Assembly: GCA_022842585.1 (NCBI GenBank)
Contig: JALHPI010000007.1
Span: forward strand, 1 to 37,375
Reading direction: 5' to 3'
DNA length: 37,375 nucleotides
Origin: Minisyncoccota bacterium
Lineage (GTDB): Bacteria; Patescibacteriota; Minisyncoccia; Phycocordibacterales; Phycocordibacteraceae
Shown one piece after another: positions 1,828 through 25,281 of the stretch. Both the position numbers and the translations under genes were made by a program. Below the pieces are notes generated by a model. The model saw only the letters and a program-made list of their open reading frames with translations. It searched no databases and was not told the DNA's origin. Each line of letters opens with the position of its first letter. Position 1 is the stretch's first letter.

Positions 1828-2625
1828 CTAGTATTCGCAGATAGGGAGATTAGTGTTTACGTGGACGTTCACGTCGTTTCCGTTCGAAAGGACGCAGTCA
1901 TGGATGCGGACTGGATTTTCCGCGCCGACATCCGTAAGGTAGGTAGTGAGTGCCGTCTGGCATGCTTGTGCTGTGGCTGCAGCCGCAGCATCAAGCGCGT
2001 AGCAGTTGACCCCTTCTTCTGGGCTTCTGATTTCTTCCCCTACCACGTAGAAGTATTGTCCCGCTGCAAAACGATACACCCAGTTTAGTCCTGCTGGGCC
2101 GTCGCCTTCCTGACCCACCCCGCCTCCAGGATCCCCTACCCCGTCCCCGAGGAACTCACCGTCGTCCGTATAGTCTTCTGCGGTCGGCTGAGGCGTCACT
2201 GGCCCTGGCGTAAGCCCCGACACATCCACATCAAGCCTCAGTATCCTCGGGTCAATCACGCTAAACACAAGATAGGGGGTAAGAAGAAATAGAAGCCCAA
2301 GTACTGCCATAGTGATATGGTGCTTCGCATCTTTCTTCTCGGTAATGCTGTCCCCGAGCATGTAGATGACACCCCCTTGGACAATCTTTAGGACCGCGAT
2401 TACGGCAGCGGCTCCGATACAAAGCCGGTAGAGGTTATTTAAGAGAATAGCGAGCGACTGTGAGTTTGCTGCTTCCTGTACTCCAGGGATGGAGGTAAGA
2501 GCGGTGAAAGAAGGCGCTTCTGCGGCAAAGACGAACGATGGAATCGTCGCATAGCCTGCAACCAGTACTACGAAAACAGCAAGAACAATTTGAGCAACCC
2601 GCGAAAAATATGAATTAGAGGTCAT
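1828..2625 (-). CDS. VirB2/TrbC-like pilin-type membrane protein with C-terminal extension
   Basis: Signal peptide (IVLAVFVVLVAGYATIPSFVFAAEA), then two hydrophobic helices (LCIGAAAVIAVLKIVQGGVIYMLGDS..., HITMAVLGLLFLLTPYLVFSVI). Start taken at internal ATG 2625. Confidence 0.6.
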   Translation of the reverse strand: MTSNSYFSRVAQIVLAVFVVLVAGYATIPSFVFAAEAPSFTALTSIPGVQEAANSQSLAILLNNLYRLCIGAAAVIAVLKIVQGGVIYMLGDSITEKKDAKHHITMAVLGLLFLLTPYLVFSVIDPRILRLDVDVSGLTPGPVTPQPTAEDYTDDGEFLGDGVGDPGGGVGQEGDGPAGLNWVYRFAAGQYFYVVGEEIRSPEEGVNCYALDAAAAATAQACQTALTTYLTDVGAENPVRIHDCVLSNGNDVNVHVNTNLPICEY

Positions 2626-3862
2626 ATGCCCAGAGTGAACCATCTTTCTTATTGGTAAACAATAACACATCCGAGTTCGCATCAATTGCGAGTGACACGC
2701 CGTCTATGGCGGTGTTTGCGATCGCGACCGGGTCGACTATGAGAATCGCGGTGCGACTTACCAAATCTATCTTCCAAATCCGGTCTGAAAATGAAATTGC
2801 GCCCTGGTACCACGAATCAGGCCAGGTACCACCGATAGCGCGCGGGACAGCGCAATATACAGAAAGCTCATCGGCAGCCCACACACACTTCTCAGGAAGC
2901 AATGCTACCGGAAGCGCGGTTTGTGCGCGCGTCGTCGTATCCATTGCGCTTGCGGTAACCGTCTGCCCGGAAAGATAGCTGTAGATTACCTGCTTTCCAG
3001 ACGGACTTGGAAGCATGGTGAATCCCCGGTACGGGCCAAGTATGCGGTCGAAGACACCCGATGCATTCACAAGGAAGCCGAAGCCATCCATTTGCGCAGA
3101 GGGTTTCGTGAACGCGCCCACTCCCTGTCCGGAAGGGGTAAGCCGAAGCGAGGAGAGGTTTGAAGTGAAGAGCGTCTTTGCGTTTGCCCCATCAGCGCGC
3201 GCAATGGTCGCGATAGAGCCGGTAGTACTTGGCAGGAGTGTGACGACAGTAGAGGTTCCGCTTACGATAACCTGGTCAAGCCCGCTTTCAAGCAGGTACC
3301 CGCCCTCTGTTTCTGTAGGGAGCGCATAGGTCTCTATCATCTCGGTCCCGGATTCGTTTGCAGAAAGGAAGCGCAGGAATGCGGTCGTGCCGTCCTTGGT
3401 CCAGGCGGCTTCCTGTATACCCGGAAGAGTGCGGTTTGAAATACGGGAAAGAAGCTTTTCGTTGAACTCGTACTTGTATACGTTTCCGCTTTTACGCTCC
3501 ACGTAGCGGACCTCCGGAACAAAAATGGTCTTCGTTGCTTTTGGTGCGGAACTCGTGCCGGTGTCAGACCCTCCCTCCTCCGTAATTTCTTTGGGTGCCA
3601 AAAACACCAAGGAACCGAACGCGACCGGGCCTTCCGTTATACGTATCAAGTTTGGTGCGACCTCTTCCCCGCCCGTAACCGTACCGTCAGTGGGCGGCTG
3701 CTCTGTATCCGTTCCCGTATAGTCGCCACCTGTTTGGAAGGGATTCTCCCCGGTATCTACGACAATGCCCCCGCCTCTTGGAGCGAAGAAAAAGAAATAT
3801 ATGCCTAGCGCAATGAGTATGAGCGCAAGCACTACTCCGGCGATAATGAGATAGCGTTTCAT
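2615..3862 (-). CDS. Membrane-anchored hypothetical protein (possible beta-propeller-type extracytoplasmic domain)
   Basis: N-terminal TM (YLIIAGVVLALILIALGIYFFFF) and repeated beta-rich segments; overlaps neighbours in the T4SS-like operon. Confidence 0.6.
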   Translation of the reverse strand: MKRYLIIAGVVLALILIALGIYFFFFAPRGGGIVVDTGENPFQTGGDYTGTDTEQPPTDGTVTGGEEVAPNLIRITEGPVAFGSLVFLAPKEITEEGGSDTGTSSAPKATKTIFVPEVRYVERKSGNVYKYEFNEKLLSRISNRTLPGIQEAAWTKDGTTAFLRFLSANESGTEMIETYALPTETEGGYLLESGLDQVIVSGTSTVVTLLPSTTGSIATIARADGANAKTLFTSNLSSLRLTPSGQGVGAFTKPSAQMDGFGFLVNASGVFDRILGPYRGFTMLPSPSGKQVIYSYLSGQTVTASAMDTTTRAQTALPVALLPEKCVWAADELSVYCAVPRAIGGTWPDSWYQGAISFSDRIWKIDLVSRTAILIVDPVAIANTAIDGVSLAIDANSDVLLFTNKKDGSLWAYDL

Positions 3863-4839
3863 AGGCCGAATATGCCGGTAGAGCGCGCCTGACCAAATTG
3901 TAAGGTGAACCGGGTCTCGGCATTATTTATCACTTTTGAATCCTGGGCGCGCACACCGATAACTGCCGTCCCTTTTGTGGCGCCGGTCGTGCGTACCGTC
4001 AAATCTGGGTCTTGGTCGCTGTCCGTCCCATTCAAGGTCCAAGCGTTTTTAGGAAGCGCGGCGTAATAGTACGGGACCGCGCGGAACGTTTGCTCGTCGC
4101 CAAGCATCGCAAACGTCCCCGAGAGGATATGTGCAAAGTCCACACTACCAAGCGGGTCGTGTTTATATACGCGGACGAATGGATCTACCGGGCTCACTGA
4201 AGTTGCTCCCTGCGCCACCATAGTCCTGTCTTGTGTCGTTACCGTCACCGTAATACGAGCATCACGATAGCGTATAGGTGCTTTCGCCCGCAGGATGTTT
4301 TTTCCAATACCAGACTCTGATTCAAGTATTTTATCGCCAAACCTCCAGGTATATACGAGGTTTGCAGCGGGGATTTTGGTACCGGAGGTAGTCTGGAAGT
4401 CCGGAAGCGCTATCAGGGTGACCGGTCCTTCAGAAGCGACCAGCTTTGCGCCCTTATAAAACGGAGGGACCGTTGAACTTGCCTCTACGACAAGTGCAAC
4501 ATCCGCAGGAAAGAGAGTTTGGGTCGCTTCATGAGTACCGTCTACGTCGGTCGTTACCACCTTTACCACCGACTTACTTCCCGGTCCTCCCATAGTGAAG
4601 GTAGCTTTTCGCTCGTTTTCCCCTACCACGACCCCGTTTACCGATATAGAAATAGTGCTTGCACTTAAATCAAGTTGCGAACTTGAAACGGTGAGCGTTA
4701 CGCGGTCATAGGGGCGCGGATATTGCGGAGAGAATGAGAATCGCAACTCCTCACCCACCGGGAGTTCTTGCGCGAGTGCGGGCGCTTCCATTGGGAACAG
4801 AAATGTGAAAAAGAGTAGAGAAAACGCAACGATACGCAT
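3859..4839 (-). CDS. Exported hypothetical protein with Ig/PKD-like repeats
   Basis: Signal peptide ending APALAQ; repeated beta-rich segments (FSPQYPRPYDRVTLTVSSSQ, LVYTWRFGDKILESESGIG). Confidence 0.55.
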   Translation of the reverse strand: MRIVAFSLLFFTFLFPMEAPALAQELPVGEELRFSFSPQYPRPYDRVTLTVSSSQLDLSASTISISVNGVVVGENERKATFTMGGPGSKSVVKVVTTDVDGTHEATQTLFPADVALVVEASSTVPPFYKGAKLVASEGPVTLIALPDFQTTSGTKIPAANLVYTWRFGDKILESESGIGKNILRAKAPIRYRDARITVTVTTQDRTMVAQGATSVSPVDPFVRVYKHDPLGSVDFAHILSGTFAMLGDEQTFRAVPYYYAALPKNAWTLNGTDSDQDPDLTVRTTGATKGTAVIGVRAQDSKVINNAETRFTLQFGQARSTGIFGL

Positions 4840-4901
4840 AGTGCTAGTATAGCGCGCAAAATATATCGAAAACTATTTTTTAATGACTCCGTGGGTACTA
4901 C

Positions 4902-5648
4902 TTACGCTGCTTCACGTACATCTTCGGTATACGGGTCTCTACGTGCTGGGGGAGAACCGGGTCGTGTGGCGCTCTTGCGTCTTTCTTTATCCCTGCGATA
5001 GGCATCAAGGGCAAGTACCGAACCTGCGACGGCTTTTACGGGCAGCGGCGCTCCGGAAGCGATGATGCCAGCGGCCTTCATTCCTATATTTTCGTCTTTT
5101 TCTTGTTGGCGTCTTTGAATTTCTCGCCGGTCTTTTCCGGGTTTCGCATCCGCAACTGCCTTTTGCCGAAGTTGTTCCCTAGTTTGCTCCGCGCCGTCTG
5201 GTCCATATCCACGATATCTACGGTCGAGCTTTCGTTGCTTTCCCGCGCTCAACTCCTTCCCTTCCGCCTCTTGTTCGGCAAGTTTGTTTGCTTTTACATC
5301 CCCTGCCCAAGAAATCAAGATGCGGGACAACACCCCGAACGTTATGGCAGGGAAAAAGTCTAATCCCGGTATGAACTCAACCACGAGGGCTCCGTAATAC
5401 GCGAGAACGCGCATCAGGATGAAGTGGTTTTGGGTATTGTTGTCAGCGAGCTTGAACCATATCCATAGGACGACGAAAGCAAGAAGGCTGAGCATCCACG
5501 CGACCACAAGCCCCACTCCTAGTACGGCGGTCAATGCCAGACCCACAAAGAACTGTAATGCGTCAATACAGATTGCAAACGCAATCATAAGCACCGCCGT
5601 CATCGGGCTCGGGCTTAGTTTGAAGGGTTTCTTCGGCTCTTCCGCCAT
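4902..5648 (-). CDS. Hypothetical membrane protein of the T4SS-like operon
   Basis: Several N-terminal hydrophobic helices and a charged C-terminal tail; collinear with the VirB4-like genes. Confidence 0.6.
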   Translation of the reverse strand: MAEEPKKPFKLSPSPMTAVLMIAFAICIDALQFFVGLALTAVLGVGLVVAWMLSLLAFVVLWIWFKLADNNTQNHFILMRVLAYYGALVVEFIPGLDFFPAITFGVLSRILISWAGDVKANKLAEQEAEGKELSAGKQRKLDRRYRGYGPDGAEQTREQLRQKAVADAKPGKDRREIQRRQQEKDENIGMKAAGIIASGAPLPVKAVAGSVLALDAYRRDKERRKSATRPGSPPARRDPYTEDVREAA

Positions 5649-5651
5649 ACC

Positions 5652-7487
5652 TTACGAAGCACCTCCGGTTTCAAGACGATTCTTTTCGTTCTTTATGGCA
5701 AGCAATTGCGACGGGTCGCTCGTGATGATTTGGTCCTCGGTATAGGACGCGACGACTTTAATCGCGACGTGTTTCAAGCCCGCGAAGAAAAGCCCCTCCC
5801 CCACCCCGGATTCAAGAAGCAGGAATTTCTCCTCGTCGGTCAGGTTGAAGATGTCTTTCAGAAGGTCGATAGTGGTCGGTGATTGTTTCAGGAGAAGCTG
5901 GATGGATGAGTTCGTGAGAATAGGCTTGCCGTAAGGACTTCGGAGGAAGTCTTCCACGTCCTGCGTGATGGTGGAGACACCCAGGTAGTATTTACGTCCG
6001 CGCTTCGCGAGACTGAAGAGGAAGGACGCGGTGTCTTCGGACTTCATCATCCACCATGCCTCGTCGATGATGAGAAGGCGTTTCTTCAATTCATGGCGCA
6101 CCGCGTTCCATATGAAGTGGGTCACGATGTACATTGCGACCGGTTTAAGCTCGTCCTCCATATCGCGCACCGAGAAAACGATGAACTGCTTGTTGATATC
6201 CACGTTCGTCGGCTGGTTTATGAAGCCGGCCCAGGTGCCCTTCGTGTACTTGGAGAGGCGCTGGACGAGGGACTCCGAGCCTTGCATACCCGAAAGCACG
6301 TTCTCAAAGTCGGAGAGAAGCGGTGCTTCTACACCGGTGAAGTCTGCATCTCCGGTGATGTCTTTTAAGGCGTACGTTTCCGTAATGGCGCGGTCGACGA
6401 TGGCGTCTTCCTCCGGAGTGAGGCCGCCGAGCATGATGCGGAAAAGACCGACGAGGTTGATGATGTTTGAGCGGAGGATGTCGGACGGGTTCTCATCTTC
6501 CTTCACGGGTGGTAGGTCAAACGGATTGATATGGTGCTCGCTTGAAAGCGAGATGTTGAACATGCGCCCGCCGGTCGCCTCCGCAAGCGAGGAATACTCC
6601 TGCTCCGGGTCGATGACGATGACAGTGGTATCAAACATCAGTGAGCGGAGAATCTCGAGCTTCACCGCATAAGATTTACCGGAACCGGACTTCGCAAACA
6701 CGACAGAGTTGTAGTTTTCAAGCGAGAAGCGGTCGAAGAGGATGAGAGAGGCGTTGTGGCGGTTGATGCCGTAGAGGATGCCTCTATCGCTCGTGAGGTC
6801 AAAGGAAACGAATGGAAAAATGGAAGAAAGCGGAGAGGAATTCAGTTTATGATTTACGGAGAGCTCATCAAGCGCAAGAGGAAGCGTGGAGCGGAAGCCC
6901 TGTTCCTGCTGGAAGAGTGCCGGCTTCGTGTAGATGAGGCGGGAATCGAGGATACCGCGCACGTCCGCCTCGATTTTATCGAGCTCCTCTTTGGAATTTC
7001 CGTAAATGGTGAGGTAGAGACCCACTTCAAACAGCTTCTCCTGCGCCTGCTGGAGATTGTCGCGAAGCGCCTCAAGGTCCTGGTAGGCGGTATCGAGCAT
7101 CGGGTCGCGCACGAGCCCCTTCTCTTCCCTGTCCGCTATCTGGCTCTGCACCTCGGCGACTTTCCTTTGGAAACTGCGGAGCGCCGCTTCAGTCTCTACC
7201 GGATGTATGAAAATGCCCGCGTCAAAGACGCGTGAGAGGTTCACGATAGGGGTAAACCAGCTATCGGTGAGATAACGCGGGTAGGAAATGGTATAGAACG
7301 AGCGGGCGAACTGCTCGCCAAGCTCTATCTCCTTTGCACTTACCTTTAGTGCGGCGGGAGCGATGGTATCTGCGAGATTCAAGGCACCCTCCGCGTAGAT
7401 GTCTTTTGGGAGTACCGGGACGATTTGCGGCATGCTCATAGCCGCACCGTCTTTTTGTTTCTTGTTGAGAAAGTCGAGGAGGGCCAT
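5652..7487 (-). CDS. VirB4/TraC-family conjugative ATPase
   Basis: Walker A VFAKSGSGKSYAVKLEILRSL, Walker B KKRLLIIDEAWWMM, VIDPEQEYSSLAEATGGRMFNISLSSEHHINPFDLP, GVSTITQDVEDFL. Confidence 0.92.
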   Translation of the reverse strand: MALLDFLNKKQKDGAAMSMPQIVPVLPKDIYAEGALNLADTIAPAALKVSAKEIELGEQFARSFYTISYPRYLTDSWFTPIVNLSRVFDAGIFIHPVETEAALRSFQRKVAEVQSQIADREEKGLVRDPMLDTAYQDLEALRDNLQQAQEKLFEVGLYLTIYGNSKEELDKIEADVRGILDSRLIYTKPALFQQEQGFRSTLPLALDELSVNHKLNSSPLSSIFPFVSFDLTSDRGILYGINRHNASLILFDRFSLENYNSVVFAKSGSGKSYAVKLEILRSLMFDTTVIVIDPEQEYSSLAEATGGRMFNISLSSEHHINPFDLPPVKEDENPSDILRSNIINLVGLFRIMLGGLTPEEDAIVDRAITETYALKDITGDADFTGVEAPLLSDFENVLSGMQGSESLVQRLSKYTKGTWAGFINQPTNVDINKQFIVFSVRDMEDELKPVAMYIVTHFIWNAVRHELKKRLLIIDEAWWMMKSEDTASFLFSLAKRGRKYYLGVSTITQDVEDFLRSPYGKPILTNSSIQLLLKQSPTTIDLLKDIFNLTDEEKFLLLESGVGEGLFFAGLKHVAIKVVASYTEDQIITSDPSQLLAIKNEKNRLETGGAS

Positions 7488-7488
7488 A

Positions 7489-8124
7489 TTATTTTTGGTT
7501 CATTTGTATCGGAGTCTCAAGCGCGCCGACGTTAAACGAACGGTACAAAAGCTCTATCACCTCTTCGGTTCCAAGCTGTACCGCACGCACCCCGCTTGAG
7601 CTGAGGCTTGAGGCGACGAGCGCCATGCGCTGTTCGAGCTGCACTTTATGTTCGTCAAATGATTGCGACATCCCTTCTGACTGCGCGGCAGGCTTCCCGC
7701 CAAACAAAGGAAACGAAGTTGGAATCTGAGTGATGCCGGCCGGTTCAAACGGAACGACGACATAGAAGAGCTTGGTCATGATGTCCGAGCCCTCGATGAA
7801 ATTCTTTACGAACTGTATGTACTCGCGCACCTGGATACGCATCAGTTCCGTTGCCTGGGAATCCACACGCTCTTCAAGGAGTGCGAGGTACGGACGGATG
7901 TCCATGCGGCGGGAGTGCACGACGATTTCCACCGAGAAATCAAGCGTATTCAAAAATGTTTGGAACCCGCCGATGACGGCCTTCTGCTCGTCCTCGCTTT
8001 TAAGCGCGAAGTTTACGGAAGAACACATGAGAATACCTCGATACCCTCCCTGTTTTAGGATGACGATACCATCGCGTACTTCCTTTACCGGTACAAATGA
8101 CTGGGCTGATTTTGCTTCGGGCAT
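7489..8124 (-). CDS. TraC-like / VirB4 N-terminal-domain protein (separate ORF)
   Basis: VKEVRDGIVILKQGGYRGILMCSSVNFALKSEDEQKAVIGGFQTFLNTLDFSVEIVVHSRRMDI..., directly upstream of the VirB4-like ATPase. Confidence 0.75.
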   Translation of the reverse strand: MPEAKSAQSFVPVKEVRDGIVILKQGGYRGILMCSSVNFALKSEDEQKAVIGGFQTFLNTLDFSVEIVVHSRRMDIRPYLALLEERVDSQATELMRIQVREYIQFVKNFIEGSDIMTKLFYVVVPFEPAGITQIPTSFPLFGGKPAAQSEGMSQSFDEHKVQLEQRMALVASSLSSSGVRAVQLGTEEVIELLYRSFNVGALETPIQMNQK

Positions 8125-8127
8125 ATA

Positions 8128-8535
8128 TTATTGCGGGTTCTGCCCGGTATCGCGCACATCAAGCGACCACGCGAGCTCTTCAAGCTTGCGACGCGAAAGC
8201 GGTGCTTTCGGAAGGGGTGCAGGTGCCGCTACCTCTATCTTCGGTGCGACCTGCTCCTTTTCCTTCTTCCAGAGGTAGAGGCGACCACCGAGGAAATAGA
8301 CAAGACCTGATTCAAGTATTTCTATGAACGGCTTTCCGTTTACCTTGTAGAACGCGAGCGCAAGTGCAAGACCTGCGATAGGGGCGCCGAGAATGATTGC
8401 GAATACAAGCGGAAGGGAGAGCACCAGAATAGTCACAATCCCCGCCCCGCCTGCGAGGTATATGAATTGTTTTATGGTCAGTGGACCAAAAATCTTGTCT
8501 TCAACCTCGATAAATTGCGGGACTTGGTACTCCAT
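8128..8535 (-). CDS. PrgI-family (VirB3-like) membrane protein
   Basis: MEYQVPQFIEVEDKIFGPLTIKQFIYLAGGAGIVTILVLSLP...VNGKPFIEILESGLVYFLGGRLYLWKK; typical PrgI layout beside VirB4. Confidence 0.8.
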   Translation of the reverse strand: MEYQVPQFIEVEDKIFGPLTIKQFIYLAGGAGIVTILVLSLPLVFAIILGAPIAGLALALAFYKVNGKPFIEILESGLVYFLGGRLYLWKKEKEQVAPKIEVAAPAPLPKAPLSRRKLEELAWSLDVRDTGQNPQ

Positions 8536-8589
8536 TTGCTTTCAGTATAGCAGTCCGCATATACCGATTTGCACAGAGTGCTGTGAACG

Positions 8590-9807
8590 CTAGTGTCCGT
8601 GACTCTCGCCACCTCCGCCTCCACCACCTCCCCCACCCTTTCCGAAGAAGGCGCTAATTCCTTTAACCGTTTCTCCGGGGAACGAGAAGAGCGAACCAAA
8701 GAAACTCATCCAAGCACCGAAAAGGCCTTTCTTCTTTTCGCCATGTGCATGCGAACCATGTCCTCCCTCACCATGTCCGCTATCATGTGAATCGTGCCCG
8801 TGCCCGTGCCCGTGATCACCATGCCCATGGTCGTCGTGCGCGTGTGCATGTGCAGTGTGCGGCCCGCGTTCTTCTGGGTGCTCGGGGGCTGTTTCATCGT
8901 CATCCCCACCTCCGCCCTCGCCGCCTCCCCCACCTCCTGCGGCAGGCAAGTACTCATCTTCTTCATAGAGGCTAACAGCTCCATTTTGTGTAGGAGTTTC
9001 AGCACTTGCGGGAACAATGTCTCCCGAAAATGATGACTCTACTACAACTACCGCTCTCCCCGGTTCTTCAGTTGCTTCTTCCTCGGGTGACTCTCGTACG
9101 ACCACTACGCCCTGACTTGGCGGTTCTGTAGGATCGTCAATAACTTCCCCCTGGGGAACTACGGCTTTACCGGTGACCACCGGTTCTTCTTCGGTTTGTG
9201 TACCCTCTGTTTCAGCTGGTTGTTCGGAGGCACCCGCCTCTTCCTGTTTTCTCGTCGCCTCAACTCGTTCCAGGCGTTCCTGTTCTTCTTTGGCTGCCGC
9301 TTCTTCCCTCTCCTTTCTTTCTGCTTCTATTCTCTCCTGGTGGGCACGGTCTTCTGCGGCAGCAACCCTTGCTTCTTCAGCCTCTAATGCTTGCACTCGT
9401 ACGGCGATGAGTCGAAGACTTTCTTGGTACCGTTGTATTTTTACAGGGTCAGAATTTGGTTTTTTTTGTTCCCTTTTCAAGTCCGCTTCCACACTCAATT
9501 GCTCGGTCCGCAATGTTTGGAGCGTTTCTTTCGGTCGAGCCTCACCCCCCCTCTCGTCCCACCTGTTCTCAATGCGAGCCACCCCTTCAACATATGCTTT
9601 TTCTATAACATCGTAATGTGCTCTCGAATTATTCTGTACATCCGGATGATATTTTATTAGAGCTTTATGGTACGCGGTTTTTAACTTTTTAGGATCTTTC
9701 GCGTCTTCCGCCGTAATACCGAGCACCGTATAAAAGTGTTCTTTTTTCCCCTCAGGATTCTTTGGGGGCCAAATGTGCCTTTGTCTAGGAGGTCCTTCTG
9801 CTGACAT
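8590..9807 (-). CDS. J-domain protein with low-complexity middle and His/Gly-rich C-terminus
   Basis: FYTVLGITAEDAKDPKKLKTAYHKALIKYHPDVQNNSRAHYDVIEKAY (J domain with HPD); tail HTAHAHAHDDHGHGDHGHGHGHDSHDSGHGEGGHGSHAHGEKK...GKGGGGGGGGGGESHGH. Confidence 0.8.
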   Translation of the reverse strand: MSAEGPPRQRHIWPPKNPEGKKEHFYTVLGITAEDAKDPKKLKTAYHKALIKYHPDVQNNSRAHYDVIEKAYVEGVARIENRWDERGGEARPKETLQTLRTEQLSVEADLKREQKKPNSDPVKIQRYQESLRLIAVRVQALEAEEARVAAAEDRAHQERIEAERKEREEAAAKEEQERLERVEATRKQEEAGASEQPAETEGTQTEEEPVVTGKAVVPQGEVIDDPTEPPSQGVVVVRESPEEEATEEPGRAVVVVESSFSGDIVPASAETPTQNGAVSLYEEDEYLPAAGGGGGGEGGGGDDDETAPEHPEERGPHTAHAHAHDDHGHGDHGHGHGHDSHDSGHGEGGHGSHAHGEKKKGLFGAWMSFFGSLFSFPGETVKGISAFFGKGGGGGGGGGGESHGH

Positions 9808-9836
9808 ACCGAAAAGTATACCCCATCAACGTAGCG

Positions 9837-10721
9837 CTAATCCAAAGGTTCGTGGTACGGGTCAATGCCGTATTTTTTTAGGGTGTCCGTTATTTCTTTG
9901 CGTTCCGGCAAGGTGTCGGACGATGGTTGTTTCGGTGTGAGAGGATCAGGGCGAAGCGCGTTTATCGGCGGTGGGACATACGCCGGGCGCGGAGGTTGTG
10001 GGGCCGACATCGGGGCTGGAGTCGGAGTGAAAACAGGCGCTGGAGGCACTGCTTGTGGCATTTTATAGGCTACGGGAGCTTGTGGTTGCGAGAAAGAGGT
10101 AGGTACGGAAAAAGCAGGAGAAGGGTTTTGCGGCGCTACGGGCGGAGTCCATGCGGATGGTTGATGACCATCCTTCATAGCCTCCACATCATGCGCCATC
10201 GTGCGAGCTACTGGCATAGCGACAGGGGCAGGAGGGATATATGGCTCTGGAGCCATTGGCGGTTGTGCCGGAGGCGTATAGATAGGTGCTGCGGGTTGTG
10301 GCGCCGGAGCTTGTGGCATGGCAATAGGGGTTGGCACCGATACGAGCGGTGTCGCAGGTGAGCTTGGGGCTTGTGCTGGGATTTGTTGCGGTGCAGGTGT
10401 CTGTGGCGCAGTACGCATCTCCTCGCGAAGCGGGAGGAAGATAGCATCGTTTGCAGCCTTTAGCACCTCGTCTATCTGTTCGTCAGGCACGCCTGCCGCT
10501 TTCAGTTCCGCCGGGAGCTCGTTTGGAGAGAGTACACCAAGGAGTGTGAGGAGTATGCGGTTTGACACCTCCCCCGCCACGTCCACCTGCATTTTTTTCG
10601 TCATCTGCAGATTTATCATGAAGTCAGCGAGACGCTCGTCGTCTATGAACGCCTGTATCTGCGGAGGCGCTGCGTCATATGCTTTCACAAGGAGGTCGTC
10701 GAGATTATGGTCGTTGTCCAT
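9837..10721 (-). CDS. Proline-rich hypothetical protein
   Basis: Helical N-terminus (DLLVKAYDAAPPQIQAFIDDERLADFMINLQMTKKMQVDVAGEVSNRILLTLLG) and long Pro/Ala-rich linker; same operon. Confidence 0.6.
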   Translation of the reverse strand: MDNDHNLDDLLVKAYDAAPPQIQAFIDDERLADFMINLQMTKKMQVDVAGEVSNRILLTLLGVLSPNELPAELKAAGVPDEQIDEVLKAANDAIFLPLREEMRTAPQTPAPQQIPAQAPSSPATPLVSVPTPIAMPQAPAPQPAAPIYTPPAQPPMAPEPYIPPAPVAMPVARTMAHDVEAMKDGHQPSAWTPPVAPQNPSPAFSVPTSFSQPQAPVAYKMPQAVPPAPVFTPTPAPMSAPQPPRPAYVPPPINALRPDPLTPKQPSSDTLPERKEITDTLKKYGIDPYHEPLD

Positions 10722-10726
10722 ACGAG

Positions 10727-13066
10727 CTAAGGGTTAGGGATGTTGAGGCCTCGCGTATTCAGGTTTGCCTTCAGCGTCTTTGAAAGCTCATCATTAAGAT
10801 TTTTAAACGCTTTTTGCGCACCCTTCATACTCATAGCTGCGTCACGAAGTGCATCGCGGTCGACTATGCTGAAACCTTGAACGTTCCGTTCACGCAATGC
10901 CTCCACGTTTCTTCGATACTCGGTTCGTTGCGCCTTTATGGTTTCTCTCAGTCCGACGATATCGTGCCCGAGACTGCTGATAGAATCCTCCAACCGCTCT
11001 TGTTCTTTCGTTTCAGTAGAAATTTCTCCTGCATACTTCTTCTTTTCATTATCGAGCTCAAGTATCCGTTTTGAATTTTGTGATTCTTTTGCTTGCTCTG
11101 CAGCTAGTTTTTGTGTAATCTCTCCGACTTTTGCAAGAGATGCCGTTGCCGCCGCCAAATTATTTTGAAGCAGGGTAACTTGTGCCGGTGTCGCGTTCCC
11201 CGCCACTGCTGCCGCCAAATCACTTTGAAGCTTAGCAACTAGTGTAGGTGTCGCAGCAGCATTCAAATTATTTTGATGCTCGGTAATTTTCGCCGCAATT
11301 TCTTGAGAGCGCACCTGCTCTGAATCAAGGTCACGGGTAGCTTTTGCAAGATTCGCACTCGCCTCTTTAAGTCTCGCACCCGCATCGTTCCAGTCTTTTA
11401 TTTTTGCATCAAACTCAGCTTTCTTCTCCTGTTCCTGTACAGTCCTGTATTCCGTCGTGGACTGCATCTTATCGCGCTCCTTGTTGTACTGCTTGAACGT
11501 ACCGCCAAGTTTTGCACCGGACGCCAGACCCTTAGCCAACTGCCCGCCAAGAATTTCTTTTTCGTACTTCGCTTTCTCGTATTTATCCTTATCCGCCTTC
11601 GCAAGTGATGCGTCGTACTCTACATGGCGCTTCTTCGCGTCTTCGATTTCACCGATACGGCCACCTTGCGCTGCGTCGCTCGCCTGGCCTAAGCCGCTGC
11701 TCTTTCCGCGTATGTCGTAGCTTGCGCGCGCACCGCGGTCGGCTATGCCGGCGAGCGTGCTACCGAGAATCGGTATTTTTCCTACACGGCTGTTGCGTAT
11801 GCCGCTTGCCGCCGCAAGTGAAGCGCTACCAAGCGTCCGGCGACCCATCCACCCCATGACCCCAAGTGGTGCTCCTCCTACCCTTCCTATGACCGCCTGA
11901 GCATTTTTCATTACTGCGTCGGAACCATAAATGCCAAACTGCTGGGCCATCGCAAGTGAGGCGACCATGAAGCCCATGGTGATGATAAAGAACATGAGTA
12001 CACCAGTGGTATTGCCTACGTCTTGCAACGACAGTGCAGCCAAAAGCCCACCATCACCAATGAGTTGATTAAGACCGTCACTCATTTTAAGTGAAGCCAA
12101 AAGGAGAATTAAGAACACAGGAGCGAAGAGAGCTTGGTCTATGAGTTTTTTCCACCATCTGTTCGCCAGGTTCTCAAGGAATGGAATAGCCATACCCGCA
12201 AACCCGATAGGAGAAATCACCATAAGGAATGCGAGCGTAATACCCCGAGAAATAAGCATAAATGCCGCGCCGAAGAAGACAACCGCAGCGACCGTAGTCA
12301 CGAGCGAAAGTAAGACATACTTCAAAATATTCTCCACTGGTTGTGAAAGCTGGGCGCCTATTCCACTCAATGTGTTTTGTAGCGTTTCGGCGTCGTACAG
12401 GGATGATAGTTGTATCTGCTGGAGGATAGTTCCCGCAAGACCATTATTTATAGCGCAGGCAACCCCCGCCACCCCGTCGGGGCATGTTTGCGCCGGTCCG
12501 TAGGTTTGTTGGTAGAGCGAGGCGGCGACAACGTTTGTAGAGTCAATGATTGCTTGACTTACAAAGAGGCTAAAGTTCAGCAACACGGCGAAGATGACGA
12601 GCTTTGGGAGCGCATGGGTCCATGGGTATTTATGTAAATCAAGGATGGTCGCAATGCCCATGAAGACGAAGCCGAACAAGAGGGCGATATTTCCGAAATC
12701 GCGCAGTATCCCCCATGCAAGCGTCATACCTGGGGAGTTACCGAAGTATGTAGAAAAATCAAACACGACTACAAGCATTGCCCAGTTGAAAATAATACCC
12801 GCGAGTCCTAGCAGAACACTGGTTATCTTGAAGATAATCCACATCACTACCGTGATTGGGGAGGTGACTGTTCCAAGAACTGCGCCAGCAGTAGTATCAC
12901 CAAGCCAAGCCCCAAAATCATCCAGAACGTTAGCGTGTGCGGTCGCTGGCAAAAGTGCTAGGGAGCAAATAAAAAAGAAGGCAAACGTACCCGCCCAAAA
13001 GCCCTTCTTTTGAGAGAAAAAATCTGAGACCGAAAGAAGCAGGCGCCTCATAGGTATTATTCGCAC
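10727..13066 (-). CDS. VirB6/TrbL-like polytopic membrane protein with C-terminal coiled-coil extension
   Basis: Signal peptide and multiple TMs (residues ~50-400: VVMWIIFKITSVLLGLAGIIFNWAMLVVVFDFSTYFGNSPGM...), then ~370 residues of charged coiled coil. Confidence 0.75.
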   Translation of the reverse strand: MRIIPMRRLLLSVSDFFSQKKGFWAGTFAFFFICSLALLPATAHANVLDDFGAWLGDTTAGAVLGTVTSPITVVMWIIFKITSVLLGLAGIIFNWAMLVVVFDFSTYFGNSPGMTLAWGILRDFGNIALLFGFVFMGIATILDLHKYPWTHALPKLVIFAVLLNFSLFVSQAIIDSTNVVAASLYQQTYGPAQTCPDGVAGVACAINNGLAGTILQQIQLSSLYDAETLQNTLSGIGAQLSQPVENILKYVLLSLVTTVAAVVFFGAAFMLISRGITLAFLMVISPIGFAGMAIPFLENLANRWWKKLIDQALFAPVFLILLLASLKMSDGLNQLIGDGGLLAALSLQDVGNTTGVLMFFIITMGFMVASLAMAQQFGIYGSDAVMKNAQAVIGRVGGAPLGVMGWMGRRTLGSASLAAASGIRNSRVGKIPILGSTLAGIADRGARASYDIRGKSSGLGQASDAAQGGRIGEIEDAKKRHVEYDASLAKADKDKYEKAKYEKEILGGQLAKGLASGAKLGGTFKQYNKERDKMQSTTEYRTVQEQEKKAEFDAKIKDWNDAGARLKEASANLAKATRDLDSEQVRSQEIAAKITEHQNNLNAAATPTLVAKLQSDLAAAVAGNATPAQVTLLQNNLAAATASLAKVGEITQKLAAEQAKESQNSKRILELDNEKKKYAGEISTETKEQERLEDSISSLGHDIVGLRETIKAQRTEYRRNVEALRERNVQGFSIVDRDALRDAAMSMKGAQKAFKNLNDELSKTLKANLNTRGLNIPNP

Positions 13067-14481
13067 CCGTTATCTGCGATATCGGTTATGAGCTCTGTGA
13101 GCGTACTGGTAGGAGCGTCAACACCGCCTGACGTAAGTACACCGTTATAGGCGGTGGTCATTTGTTGAATAAGCGCGCTACGCGCGCTTCCGGTAAGGGT
13201 GTTTAGTCGACCCAAATCGGTAATGATGCCATTCAACGTAGTTAGAGACCGCGTGGCGCGCGCAAGCATTGCGTCTGCTTGGGTTAGTGCGGTGGTCGCA
13301 TTAGTTGTTTTCTGCGGGTTACCAACTCCACTTGTACATGCAGAAACTGCTCGGGCTGCGGTAGCGCGGAAGGTTTGCCACAAAGCCTGGTTCGTAGTAA
13401 TTCGGGACTGTTCCGCGCGTACGGTCTGCTCAAATCCGTCGACTAGAGTTGCAGGAGTACCCTGTCCCGCGACTTGTTCGAGGTATGAACGACCACCTCC
13501 TGTGCTTGGTTGAGACGTACCAAGAAGCCCCGTGCCCCCAAGGACCTGGCTTACGAGCTGGCTTGCAAGAGCGCCGACAATTTCATTGATGGAGTCTGCA
13601 AGCTGGAGTTCACGTAGTGGTGAATCAAGGTTCTGTATAAGTGCGTTTTCTATAACAGATCCCGGAGTACTTATAGGACAGTCAATAGACGAGTCTGCGT
13701 CAGATAAACTAGTAAGAGTCCCTCCCGAGTCAGCTCCCTCTGCCTGGGGTGCATCCGGACAATTCCTCCACGCAAGAAATCCCCTCCCCCAACCAAGCTC
13801 CTCAAGCCGTCCGCGCGTATCGGCATTTATCCGTCTCATAAGCTCATCACGAGTACTTGTTTCCACACAGAAAGGATCGTTGCCACAATCACGGGTGGCC
13901 GCAAACCACGCATTAAAGCCGCCTTGGTTAAACTGCCCCCGACGAAACGCCTCCTCGTTTTGCGAATACTCGCTAAGCGTGTACCGTAATTGGCTTACGA
14001 TGGCGTCTCGACTCGTGTATAAGAGATAGCCTGTTGCAACCGTACTTAACGCACGCTCGAGGTACGGTGAATTAATGGAGGTATTGTTTACAAGCTCCGT
14101 AACGAAATTCGTAGCAACCGCGTCCCCCATCTGTCTAAGCATGCGGTTTAGGTCGGTCGCAAACGCTGGCGAACCCTCAAACCCAGAATTTATCCAATTC
14201 ACTACGCTACGGGTCATCGTGCGTATAGCCTGTTTTGCTACCGCCCATGCAACGCCATTCAATACTTGTTGGATAGTGAGACCGGACGTTTCTACTGCTA
14301 AAGTGCCCGCAACAGCCGCTAAAAGTGGTCCAGGTGCCTCAATGGTTACTGTGGCACCCACTGCCTGTGCGTGTCGGACGGAACGCTCACCAAGAAAAGG
14401 CGCATAGAAGATGCTCCCTACAACAGTCAGTGCAAGTACGCTCGCGACAATTCTTCTACCGATGGTATGAGATGCGGTCAT
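13057..14481 (-). CDS. Exported hypothetical protein of the T4SS-like operon
   Basis: Signal peptide (IVASVLALTVVGSIFYAPFLGERSVRHAQA), paired cysteines (ATRDCGNDPFCVET); overlaps the VirB6-like gene. Confidence 0.6.
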   Translation of the reverse strand: MTASHTIGRRIVASVLALTVVGSIFYAPFLGERSVRHAQAVGATVTIEAPGPLLAAVAGTLAVETSGLTIQQVLNGVAWAVAKQAIRTMTRSVVNWINSGFEGSPAFATDLNRMLRQMGDAVATNFVTELVNNTSINSPYLERALSTVATGYLLYTSRDAIVSQLRYTLSEYSQNEEAFRRGQFNQGGFNAWFAATRDCGNDPFCVETSTRDELMRRINADTRGRLEELGWGRGFLAWRNCPDAPQAEGADSGGTLTSLSDADSSIDCPISTPGSVIENALIQNLDSPLRELQLADSINEIVGALASQLVSQVLGGTGLLGTSQPSTGGGRSYLEQVAGQGTPATLVDGFEQTVRAEQSRITTNQALWQTFRATAARAVSACTSGVGNPQKTTNATTALTQADAMLARATRSLTTLNGIITDLGRLNTLTGSARSALIQQMTTAYNGVLTSGGVDAPTSTLTELITDIADNGCE

Positions 14482-21352: not shown

Positions 21353-21703
21353 CTAGGTATCTAAATGCGTATGTTGATCGCTAGTCCAAGGAGGACTGCT
21401 GGAAACCAGAAGCTTCAAATTTTTCCCAATAATCGCATATGCGTTTCCTTTTGGAATATGAACCATATCGCCCGCCGACACGTTTAGATTTTCCGATTCC
21501 ATCTCAATACTTCCCTCTCCTGACTCGACATACCATACTTGCTCAATGCTCATATCAACGTCGAATCCTGTTTCTGGATACCGACCGTTAATTTCTGAAA
21601 TGCCGACTGAGAGTGACTCAAACGGCAATGGGTATTCAGTAAATGTAGAGACAGAGTGTTCTGCTACCTGTTTCGTCTCAGACTTTCGAATAATCGTTAT
21701 CAT
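21353..21703 (-). CDS. Cupin-domain protein
   Basis: [41 protein letters not shown]; begins 8 nt downstream of the AclA-like stop. Confidence 0.75.
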
Positions 21704-21711
21704 TTGGAGAA

Positions 21712-23499
21712 TTATTTTTCCGGCTTGCGGGTAAAGAGGAGGTCTTCCGGAAGGCGGAAGAGGCCTTCATCGTTTTCCTTTTGTTCGAGGAAGTGCGAAA
21801 TGAATCCAACCGTGCGCGGAATGATGAACAATGCGTTGAAGAACTCCGCGTCGATGAGTGCTTTGAGTTCTGCGTCGGTGAAACCTTCGCATTCGGAAAG
21901 AATGTCCGTGAAAAGAGATGCGATGATGCCGTCCACGTTCAATATAAGCGAACCGCTTTTCGCCGTCGTCACCTCTTCCACCTGACGTGCGAAGTCATAG
22001 CGCGGATGATTCTTAAGGAGTGTAGCGAACTGCGAGAGCGCAGCGACGCGCGGGTCAAGAAGTCCGATGCGGTATTTCTTGTGGCCGATACCAAGGATAA
22101 GGCGGCCGGCTTTTGTTTCTTGCTCGACGAATGCAGACGCGGTGACGCCTGAAGCGAAGCCCGCGTTCCACGTGCGCGCGGATTCATTGATGGCGCCACC
22201 GAACCGCGGACCGATGGTGAGAAGGCCTGATGCAAGAGACGACACCATGTCTTTGCCTGCGCGCGCGGTGACCATCGTGTTTACGGCACCTGAGACCGCT
22301 CCGCCGTGGTCGATAAGGAGACTAAAGACCGCGTCCGCGAATGCGACCGTCACCTCCGATTTCGGTTTGCGCGCAAGCAGTGCGGAAAGTATGTTTCGGC
22401 TGAACGAGCCCGTCTGTGAAACGAGCGCGCCGTTTTTTACGTACTCGGGAGCGGTGTCTACGTTGATAATTTCACGCGTGGAAAGAATGCTCTCGCGTCG
22501 GCTTTTCAAGTCGTCAGCTATACCCATGGGTGCCACTATATCCCCGCCAGGCGTTTTTCGAAATGCCGCAAGAAATTCAGGGAAGGTGTCGGGTGCAATC
22601 GCACCAGCGGCCCTAAGCGCCTCGCGCTTTGCCCGCGCGCTCTCATCCTGGCGAGCCACGAGCGCTTTCGCGTGGCCGAACTGCATATGCTCGTCAAACG
22701 CTTCGTCGATGATGCCCGCGATGTATGCGATGACCGGCTTTGTGAACTTTTTTGACTTTAGAAGTTCCACAATCTCGTACTCATCCACGCCGCCGAGTTC
22801 TCCGAAGTACGCGAGCGCTTTTGAATGCGGGTCGTTCTCGATGACCGCAAGCACTTCGGAGAGGGATGCGACCGGAAACCGGTCGCCACCAATCGCAAGC
22901 GCAAAGGAAACCCCCTTCCCGCTTGCGGCCACACCGTGAATCAGCTCATTCGTCATACCACCTGAGGTAGAGACAACGGCGATAGAACCTTCTAAGGTCA
23001 GATGACTTTTTTCTATCTGTACGGCATCCACGCCGCCGATGGCACCAAGCTTCAACGCGCGTGGAACAAGTATGCCCACTGATGCGGGGCCTGACAGGAG
23101 TTTCGTCGCGCCGTATCGAGCAATGAGTTCGGTCGCGTGTTTCTCAGGGACATTTTCCGCAAAGATAGTGCCACCAAATGCTTCGGGGAATGCCTCAAAA
23201 AAAGAAACGGTCGAGTCAAACGCGCGTCGTCCCGACTGTACGTTCAACATCCATCGTACGCGTTTCGCACGCTCTTCCGGCACGAGTGACACGTTTGCGT
23301 AGCACGGTATGAGTATTTCTTTTTTACCCCAGAAGCACTTGAGCGCTTTACGGTTCCCGGTAATGAGGGCGCGTACGCTCGGGGCGTTTTTTCCAGAGAG
23401 GTAATCAAAATCAAGCATGGACTGGATAATGCGCGGGTGGTTCCCCATCACGAGCACACCGTCTTCTCCCGCACGGACTTGTTCCAAAAAGCTTTTCAT
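21712..23499 (-). CDS. aclA: ATP-citrate lyase, CoA-ligase alpha + citryl-CoA lyase subunit (AclA-like)
   Basis: AIGGDRFPVASL..., GELGGVDEYEI, phosphohistidine motif MQFGHAKA, and citrate-synthase-like block DHGGAVSGAVNTMVTARAGKDMVSSLASGLLTIGPRFGGA...GRLILGIGHKK...LILNVDGIIASLFTDIL...TVGFISHFLEQK. Confidence 0.88.
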   Translation of the reverse strand: MKSFLEQVRAGEDGVLVMGNHPRIIQSMLDFDYLSGKNAPSVRALITGNRKALKCFWGKKEILIPCYANVSLVPEERAKRVRWMLNVQSGRRAFDSTVSFFEAFPEAFGGTIFAENVPEKHATELIARYGATKLLSGPASVGILVPRALKLGAIGGVDAVQIEKSHLTLEGSIAVVSTSGGMTNELIHGVAASGKGVSFALAIGGDRFPVASLSEVLAVIENDPHSKALAYFGELGGVDEYEIVELLKSKKFTKPVIAYIAGIIDEAFDEHMQFGHAKALVARQDESARAKREALRAAGAIAPDTFPEFLAAFRKTPGGDIVAPMGIADDLKSRRESILSTREIINVDTAPEYVKNGALVSQTGSFSRNILSALLARKPKSEVTVAFADAVFSLLIDHGGAVSGAVNTMVTARAGKDMVSSLASGLLTIGPRFGGAINESARTWNAGFASGVTASAFVEQETKAGRLILGIGHKKYRIGLLDPRVAALSQFATLLKNHPRYDFARQVEEVTTAKSGSLILNVDGIIASLFTDILSECEGFTDAELKALIDAEFFNALFIIPRTVGFISHFLEQKENDEGLFRLPEDLLFTRKPEK

Positions 23500-24650
23500 G
23501 ATTTCAAGTACGTTATGGCGTCATCAACGGCGCTCGTGATGACCGCGTCTGAACCGTACACGGAGCCGAGCAGACGTTCCTTTTCAAGGAACGTTCCCAT
23601 ACGTGCAAGCCCTTCCGTTTCGTTTGGTCCTCCGCGGCGTACGTAGACGCGTACGTTTCCGGCACGAAGCGCATCAGCGTATTCCGTGAGCGCATCAATG
23701 ATGCCGCCGAACGTCGTTTTCACATCCGTGAAGTTTGCGACCCCACCCGCTATGACCAGCGCTTTTTTCGGTGCCGAAGAAGCAAGCATCAGTGCAAATA
23801 CTTCTTTGGCGTACAGGTACGTTTCTTCGCGGGTAGGTCCGCCACTGTATTCCCCATAGTTTGCAATCTCCTTCCCCATCCCAAGAAGCTCTGCTTCGTC
23901 AGCAATGACGATGGAACCCCCGCCGCCTGAAAGCAGGAAGTAAAGCGAACCGTCGGGATTGATGACATTCAGTTTGAGCGAGGCTGGCGTCGTTTCGGCA
24001 AGCGCCTCTACGGCCGCTTCGCGCGGATGCTTTTTCGCCTGCTTCACGATATCGCTTGCGCTCCAGCCGTTTGCGAAGAATTGCGCAGAGCTATCAACGA
24101 GTACCGCCGCGTCCAACAGGTGTATCTCTCCGTTTTGTATGACAAGCGGATTGATTTCAAGGAACGCGAAATATTCTTTTTCAAACGCACTCAAAACAGA
24201 CTCTATGAATGTATGTGGTATGCCGGTTTTGGTAGAAACCACAGAAACATCGCCTGCACCCCGTATGAGAAATGTCTCGACCTTATCCGGGTGTTCTTCA
24301 ATCTCGATACCGCCCTCGCGCGCGTAGAGTACGCGGATGCCGTCGCGCACGCGCTCAAACGACACGTAGCGTTCTTCCGACGCATCGTGCGGGAGCATGG
24401 GCTCCACGATAAAGTTCGCGAATCCCTTCCCTTCCCATGCGTTCGTCGCCGATACGCAGTCTGTTCCGGCAACGTTGAGCGCAAGCAACCCCTGCTTCAT
24501 GCGCTTCTTTATACCTTGGTCTACTTTCACCACGAACGGTCCGTCTCCGGAGACCGTAGGCGTTTCTCCGGAGGAAAACGAAACACCGCTATAGGCGTCG
24601 CCGAGCAGGATACGCTTCGCCTGATATTCGGTGAGTTTTACTCTGGGCAT
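23496..24650 (-). CDS. aclB: ATP-citrate lyase ATP-grasp subunit (AclB-like)
   Basis: FIVEPMLPHDASEERYVSFERVRDGIRVLYAREGGIEIE, YFAFLEINPLVI, SLKLNVINPDGSLYFLLSGGGGSIVIADEAELLG...EIANYGEYSGGPTREETYLYAKEVFALM, ANFTDVKTTFGGIIDAL, VYVRRGGPNETEGLARM; colinear with the N-terminal half of animal ACLY. Confidence 0.88.
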   Translation of the reverse strand: MPRVKLTEYQAKRILLGDAYSGVSFSSGETPTVSGDGPFVVKVDQGIKKRMKQGLLALNVAGTDCVSATNAWEGKGFANFIVEPMLPHDASEERYVSFERVRDGIRVLYAREGGIEIEEHPDKVETFLIRGAGDVSVVSTKTGIPHTFIESVLSAFEKEYFAFLEINPLVIQNGEIHLLDAAVLVDSSAQFFANGWSASDIVKQAKKHPREAAVEALAETTPASLKLNVINPDGSLYFLLSGGGGSIVIADEAELLGMGKEIANYGEYSGGPTREETYLYAKEVFALMLASSAPKKALVIAGGVANFTDVKTTFGGIIDALTEYADALRAGNVRVYVRRGGPNETEGLARMGTFLEKERLLGSVYGSDAVITSAVDDAITYLKS

Positions 24651-24651
24651 A

Positions 24652-25281
24652 CTACTCTTTTACCATAATCGTCTCTTCCGTGTCGGAAGCAAATGACTCA
24701 CGTATAGCAAAACCGAGCCCGGTCGCAAGACCAATGCTTGCCGGGTTTGCTCCATAGATGCCCGCCCAAAGCTTCGCTTTCGGATGACGCTTCAGGTACG
24801 TATCCATGCAAAAGCGGACGAAGTCTTTCATGATGCCGGTACCCCGAAACGGCGGGTAGGAACGGTAGACGATGGTGTGCCAATTGTGTGAATCCATCGC
24901 GCGCTCATCTTCAGCGCGCTCATCTGCCGAGAGGTGCTTCATTGATTTCCTGCCAAGTGGCTTAGGGCCAAACCACGCAAGGGCTGCAAGCGTACCCGTG
25001 TTTTCTTCTATGAGTGCAAACAACGTCCGTTCCTTCGAGCGATACCAATCTTCGTAGGAGCCTTTGCCGAACCGCTCAAAGTCTGAAGTTTTTTGAAGTT
25101 CCGCATCCGACGTATCAAGCGAGTACTTTTTCAATTGATTGATGCCAGACGCGTCGAGACCCTCGCGTATGACGAAAGCTGTTCCGGTTGTCCCGAACGC
25201 CTTCCCGATTTCCCGAGATTCAAATAGTGGCAACATGCCCGTATCGCGCGAAGGCGTATGCGCGCTAATGGATAGACCCAT
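24652..25281 (-). CDS. GNAT-family N-acetyltransferase
   Basis: TIVYRSYPPFRGTGIMKDFVRFCMDTYLKRHPKAKLWAGIYGANPASIGLATGLGFAIRES; ends 1 nt before the AclB-like start codon. Confidence 0.7.
   Translation of the reverse strand: MGLSISAHTPSRDTGMLPLFESREIGKAFGTTGTAFVIREGLDASGINQLKKYSLDTSDAELQKTSDFERFGKGSYEDWYRSKERTLFALIEENTGTLAALAWFGPKPLGRKSMKHLSADERAEDERAMDSHNWHTIVYRSYPPFRGTGIMKDFVRFCMDTYLKRHPKAKLWAGIYGANPASIGLATGLGFAIRESFASDTEETIMVKE

Follow-up and report, generated by a model that had tools for sequence, protein, structure and literature searches.

A predicted two-subunit ATP-citrate lyase linked to GNAT-type N-acetyltransferase genes in Kaiserbacteria

The minus strand of positions 21712-24650 of the window (the whole stretch of DNA that was analysed, 37,375 nucleotides) carries a gene pair for what is, judging from its domains and motifs, a complete ATP-citrate lyase (ACL) of two subunits; the pair follows a GNAT gene, the three genes forming the unit GNAT-aclB-aclA. 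The window is contig C7 of genome G000, a Kaiserbacteria/Paceibacteria genome of 657 kb (95.6% complete, 35 contigs), in which ACL is the sole acetyl-CoA source found among the families searched. New in this case is a known enzyme in a conserved genetic partnership with a GNAT; ACL in CPR has already been reported (Saccharimonadia). We lean, with modest confidence, towards the explanation that citrate is imported and cleaved outside any TCA cycle, and that the acetyl groups so obtained serve a linked N-acetylation.

The ACL gene pair and the GNAT gene upstream

The aclB-type subunit (23496-24650, minus strand, 384 aa) combines an ATP-grasp domain with the ACL-specific citrate-binding domain, as indicated by the Pfam matches PF16114 (Citrate_bind, 174.1 bits, cut-off 26.8) and PF24948 (Citrate_synth_N, 102.5 bits, cut-off 83). 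In the aclA-type subunit (21712-23499, minus strand, 595 aa), a CoA-ligase alpha part with a putative phosphohistidine is fused to a C-terminal citryl-CoA lyase domain featuring the expected His/His/Asp residues, and the Pfam families Ligase_CoA, Succ_CoA_lig and Citrate_synt, the latter covering the lyase part, all score above cut-off. Both open reading frames, described as overlapping in an earlier sequence-only reading, are present and share 4 nt (ATGA, 23496-23499, minus strand), as read directly from the sequence, an arrangement typical of translational coupling. The naming of the two subunits as AclB and AclA was likewise borne out by the Pfam domains and by searches against the PDB. Here, the best matches of AclA were human ACLY (344 bits) and Methanothrix ACLY-B (343 bits), with no succinyl-CoA synthetase (SCS) alpha scoring above 83 bits, while AclB reached 202 bits with human ACLY and 170 bits with Methanothrix ACLY, but 30 bits with SCS beta. 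A misannotated succinyl- or malyl-CoA ligase is ruled out by these scores together with the tree described below.

Moreover, the catalytic elements noted earlier as intact were all found in the 595-aa subunit, namely QFGHA (H276), DHGGAVSG (H398), GIGHK (H473) and LNVDG (D523). The gene pair also has the citrate-binding motifs ANFT (N306/T308) and RRGGPN (R338/R339). In the alignment, these catalytic and citrate-binding motifs are conserved across the full-length homologues. Based on alignments and general knowledge of ACLY, we take the motif residues to be equivalent to those of the human enzyme; the predicted activity of AclAB is a CoA- and ATP-dependent cleavage of citrate.

The first gene of the unit encodes a GNAT N-acetyltransferase, here referred to as type A (24652-25281, minus strand, 209 aa), and its stop codon lies 1 nt before the start of aclB. 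The sequence-only reading, correct on the ACL pair itself, had overlooked this gene, which is the most informative feature of the locus. Its Pfam matches (Acetyltransf_3/_1, E 2e-4 to 8e-4) fall slightly below cut-off, several orthologues exceed it, and the AlphaFold model (pLDDT 81) matched GNATs in Foldseek with a probability of 1.00; among these matches were PaiA, SpeG and ribosomal-protein acetyltransferases, all at ≤17% identity. An acetyl-CoA-binding RGxG motif occurs in GNAT-A as well as in a second kind, GNAT-B, found at related loci, so that the GNAT domain and this motif place both in the GNAT superfamily. They have the fold and the motif in common with SpeG, RimI, PaiA and GNA1, but GNAT-A matched none of the named NCBIfam families at E 0.01 and its profile gave no match to GNA1 chains. 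GNAT-B resembles RimI-type GNATs (NCBIfam, 64.8 bits, below cut-off), and its profile scored 38-47 bits with GNA1 chains, with other GNATs scoring better. No close relative of GNAT-A is characterised and its structural matches do not name an acceptor either, so that any acceptor proposed for it is a guess.

Directly after aclA, a 116-aa cupin-domain protein is encoded (21353-21703, minus strand; Pfam Cupin_2 slightly below cut-off). It was considered as an ACL partner and rejected, as it forms a single-locus cluster that is not conserved at other ACL loci and is probably incidental.

Phylogeny and distribution of ACL

In the maximum-likelihood tree of the large subunit, the window ACL falls within a Patescibacteria-only clade of 29 rows, which is split with 100/100 support from the group containing the human, Methanothrix and Sulfurovum enzymes. 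The tree of the small subunit, AclB, sets the SCS-like rows apart from all ACLs on a branch of 4.9 substitutions/site (100/100). The comparison with ACLY and succinyl-CoA synthetase, which had been proposed earlier as a check, consequently places the families of both subunits with the ACLs. Four further CPR loci (L068, L069, L071 and L072, the last one on a long branch and of unsure placement) cluster with the canonical ACLs and not with the Patescibacteria-only clade, which suggests that ACL probably entered CPR more than once. Loci related to the window mostly come from genomes named Candidatus Kaiserbacteria or Paceibacterota. Within the genus of the window, the enzyme is patchy (4/35 genomes), and in a phylum sample 24/380 genomes gave a citrate-binding-domain match above cut-off; about half of these matches are weak, and some at least resemble succinyl-CoA synthetases. 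At one locus (L078:8716-10478, genome G067), aclA is split into two ORFs, either by mutation or by sequencing error.

Horizontal acquisition, raised by the sequence-only reading, is not upheld if it is meant to be recent: despite the patchy occurrence in the genus, the protein belongs to a deep ACL clade made up of Patescibacteria only, and the codon use of the ACL genes is like that of the remainder of the window. The window and its relative G001 (locus L006) furthermore have flanking gene families in common, and together with the ordinary codon use this makes misassembly or a very recent transfer unlikely and speaks against contamination. A viral or plasmid origin was rejected as well, since no relative was found among viral contigs and the phage matches were only sucD-like; the sole plasmid match was a Sulfurovum plasmid with an ordinary ACL (34% identity).

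Linkage of GNAT genes to ACL

The clade was counted as 18 intact Kaiserbacteria-type loci plus L024 and L079, and neighbour reading combined with Pfam revealed a GNAT at all 20 of them. It lies directly upstream on the same strand in 17/20 loci, at a distance of -14 to +8 nt, whereas in the other three it is found directly downstream (L010) or behind a divergent phosphotransacetylase gene (L009, L017). The orthologue of L007 has no Pfam match of its own, yet is 48% identical to the window protein. Two dissimilar kinds occupy this position, i.e., type A of about 200 aa, as in the window, and type B of about 145 aa. When profiles of both were run on 45 genomes, type A scored above 170 bits in 11 genomes and type B above 139 bits in 10, in every case at the ACL locus, while neither profile gave a match above 42 bits in 23 ACL-negative congeners. 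The corresponding Fisher test (p = 1e-12) ignores relatedness and is indicative only. This strict co-occurrence turns the acceptor of the GNAT into a directly testable question.

On the ACL tree, parsimony requires at least 5 changes between A and B, as exemplified by the sister genomes of the window (A) and L006 (B). Since the L017 genome has both kinds, this pattern could stem from repeated replacement or from an ancestral A+B pair of which one member was lost, and the fact that A and B persist as alternatives points to selection for the presence of a GNAT at this place. A metabolic operon around ACL in Kaiserbacteria was considered and rejected, because the long conserved neighbours proved on sequence reading to be informational genes (ileS, recO, glyS, metG, uvrA/uvrB), which leaves the GNAT as the only specific neighbour of ACL. 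At L022:5636-6808, the type-A protein is a fusion with an N-terminal phosphatase-like domain of the HAD family, which may hint that the acceptor is phosphorylated.

Some ACL loci of the wider clade are devoid of a GNAT. In sister lineages of this kind, glmS lies immediately downstream of ACL (L077), and glmM (L070, 443.6 bits, slightly short of the cut-off of 447.55), murB (L073) or an acetate-CoA ligase (L076, above cut-off) beside it; at L075, sequence reading revealed a glmS-like gene two genes downstream. Pta, i.e., phosphotransacetylase, was detected in 2/38 genomes searched, exactly those in which it flanks ACL, and these genes (L009:5815-6771 and L017:5796-6776, divergent from aclB) are the only copies. 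The GNAT linkage and this set of neighbours (glmS, glmM, murB, acetate-CoA ligase, Pta) suggest that ACL acts as acetyl-CoA supplier with N-acetylation as its main use.

Metabolic setting and possible role

Family searches in G000 gave no match for Ldh/MDH (PF02866), POR_N (PF01855, pyruvate/2-oxoglutarate:ferredoxin oxidoreductase), Pta, ADP-forming acetate-CoA ligase (ACD), AMP-forming ligases or PDH E1alpha; as a control, the same searches detect these families in most well-known genomes. Within this set of families, ACL is the only source of acetyl-CoA in G000. No citrate synthase separate from ACL was found in the 16 ACL-positive genomes searched, in each of which the one family match is ACL itself, and citrate must consequently probably come from outside. 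The scan for citrate synthase and malate dehydrogenase suggested along with the sequence-only reading thus found neither in G000, and its remark that no other TCA gene is in the window agrees with our finding none there. Of its interpretation as a whole, the true ACL and the standalone cytosolic source of acetyl-CoA/oxaloacetate gained support, the latter from the families missing in G000, and a recent horizontal acquisition did not.

Among the relatives, two have real E1alpha matches (about 200 bits), namely G449, which is ACL-positive, and G029, which is ACL-negative. On account of G449, ACL is not always the sole acetyl-CoA source. The weak PF00676 matches in many relatives cover part of the profile only and look like transketolase halves. 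As ACL-negative congeners live without the enzyme, it is not essential.

In the explanation favoured here, citrate would probably not be made by the cell but be taken from the host or the surroundings, and ACL would use ATP and CoA to cleave it to acetyl-CoA and oxaloacetate. GNAT, aclB and aclA could be located on one transcript, and the acetyl-CoA would be passed to the partner GNAT, the three genes forming a supply line from citrate to acetyl groups. The acceptor would most likely be a sugar destined for the cell envelope, namely an amino sugar or a nucleotide sugar, with a protein N-terminus or a polyamine as alternative; envelope sugars are the likeliest class because ACL lies beside glmS, glmM and murB in sister lineages. 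Acetylation of envelope amino sugars would bring the GNAT and these three genes together, though this reading is post hoc and draws on few loci. More tentatively, and with somewhat less than an even chance in our estimate, one could speak of a dedicated module of ACL and N-acetyltransferase by which TCA-less, host-dependent CPR bacteria turn borrowed citrate into acetylated envelope sugars or proteins. An analogy is provided by eukaryotic ACLY, which feeds acetylation reactions outside mitochondria.

Alternatively, the GNAT could be a regulator that responds to rising acetyl-CoA by acetylating ACL or other proteins, either as feedback control or as a protein-acetylation signal. The strict linkage would suit such a role, as would the RimI-like character of GNAT-B and the protein and ribosomal-protein acetyltransferases among the Foldseek matches of GNAT-A. 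Nevertheless, we regard it as unlikely, since two dissimilar kinds at one place are easier to reconcile with a shared small acceptor than with the recognition of one protein, and sister lineages place sugar genes beside ACL instead. Fermentation of citrate for energy, with acetyl-CoA converted to acetyl phosphate and ATP and oxaloacetate to pyruvate, would fit the Pta genes beside ACL in L009 and L017, but is improbable given that Pta is missing from G000 and 35 others of the 38 genomes searched, that no ADP-forming ligase was found and that ACL itself costs an ATP.

The ACL reaction is reversible in principle, and the enzyme could form citrate and ATP from acetyl-CoA and oxaloacetate in place of the citrate synthase missing from 16/16 ACL-positive genomes searched. 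This direction is very improbable, as G000 features no acetyl-CoA source to feed it among the families searched and the linkage to acetyl-CoA users fits the forward reaction. Carbon fixation by the reductive TCA cycle, from which bacterial ACL is best known, has a negligible chance: with POR/KGOR and malate dehydrogenase missing and no TCA genes at the locus, such autotrophy is excluded for G000, unless the missing ~4% of the genome hides all these genes.

Comparison with known systems shows where the window ACL departs from them. Domain order and the phosphohistidine, citrate-binding and lyase motifs are the same in Chlorobium AclA/AclB, Methanothrix ACLY-A/B and human ACLY, and the two-subunit enzymes of Chlorobium and Methanothrix are split at the same place, while human ACLY has DHGP where the window protein has DHGG. 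The differences from canonical ACLs lie in the separate deep Patescibacteria clade (100/100), the lack of a surrounding TCA cycle and the link to a GNAT. The CCS/CCL pair of Hydrogenobacter performs the same overall chemistry in two steps with citryl-CoA lyase as a separate protein, whereas in the window the lyase domain is fused to the CoA-ligase alpha part in the 595-aa ORF; AclB, moreover, scored 54.7 bits with the CCS large subunit in the PDB, far below its ACLY scores. In G057, a CPR genome of the same order, SCS-beta-like, SCS-alpha-like and separate citryl-CoA-lyase-like proteins are encoded in a row (L005:1-2790; L087:3653-6442), which is the layout of the Aquificales CCS/CCL.

The presence of ACL in a bacterium is commonly taken to indicate that carbon is fixed through the reductive TCA cycle. 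The clade described here is phylogenetically distinct and belongs to small-genome bacteria; in its case, such an interpretation is excluded, and acetyl transfer is what the enzyme is linked to. If the citrate-fed acetyl supply holds true, it would explain how some CPR bacteria obtain acetyl-CoA, predict their dependence on host or environmental citrate and caution that aclAB by itself is no proof of autotrophy in a CPR genome. Enrichment of ACL (aclAB) has been described for Saccharimonadia MAGs, likewise small-genome Patescibacteria, in a study that, in the parts available to us, lists Saccharimonadia only and discusses neither gene linkage nor function (PMC12577380). In the open literature, which leaves most subscription papers and all bioRxiv preprints outside, we found neither ACL in Kaiserbacteria nor a GNAT-ACL unit described.

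Apart from this clade, the CPR genome G097, which carries a canonical-type ACL (L068:1249-8566), features a eukaryote-type NADP isocitrate dehydrogenase directly upstream, a probable aconitase by sequence reading and several ferredoxin-oxidoreductase matches, which makes it a CPR candidate for a genuine TCA route, be it reductive or partial. Elsewhere in the window, positions 2615-14481 form a T4SS-like region, in which a DnaJ-domain protein (8590-9807) is encoded along with several large proteins that match no Pfam family. The T4SS mentioned in the sequence-only reading finds support in a VirB4-type ATPase of the CD1110 family encoded there (5652-7487, 374.6 bits, above cut-off).
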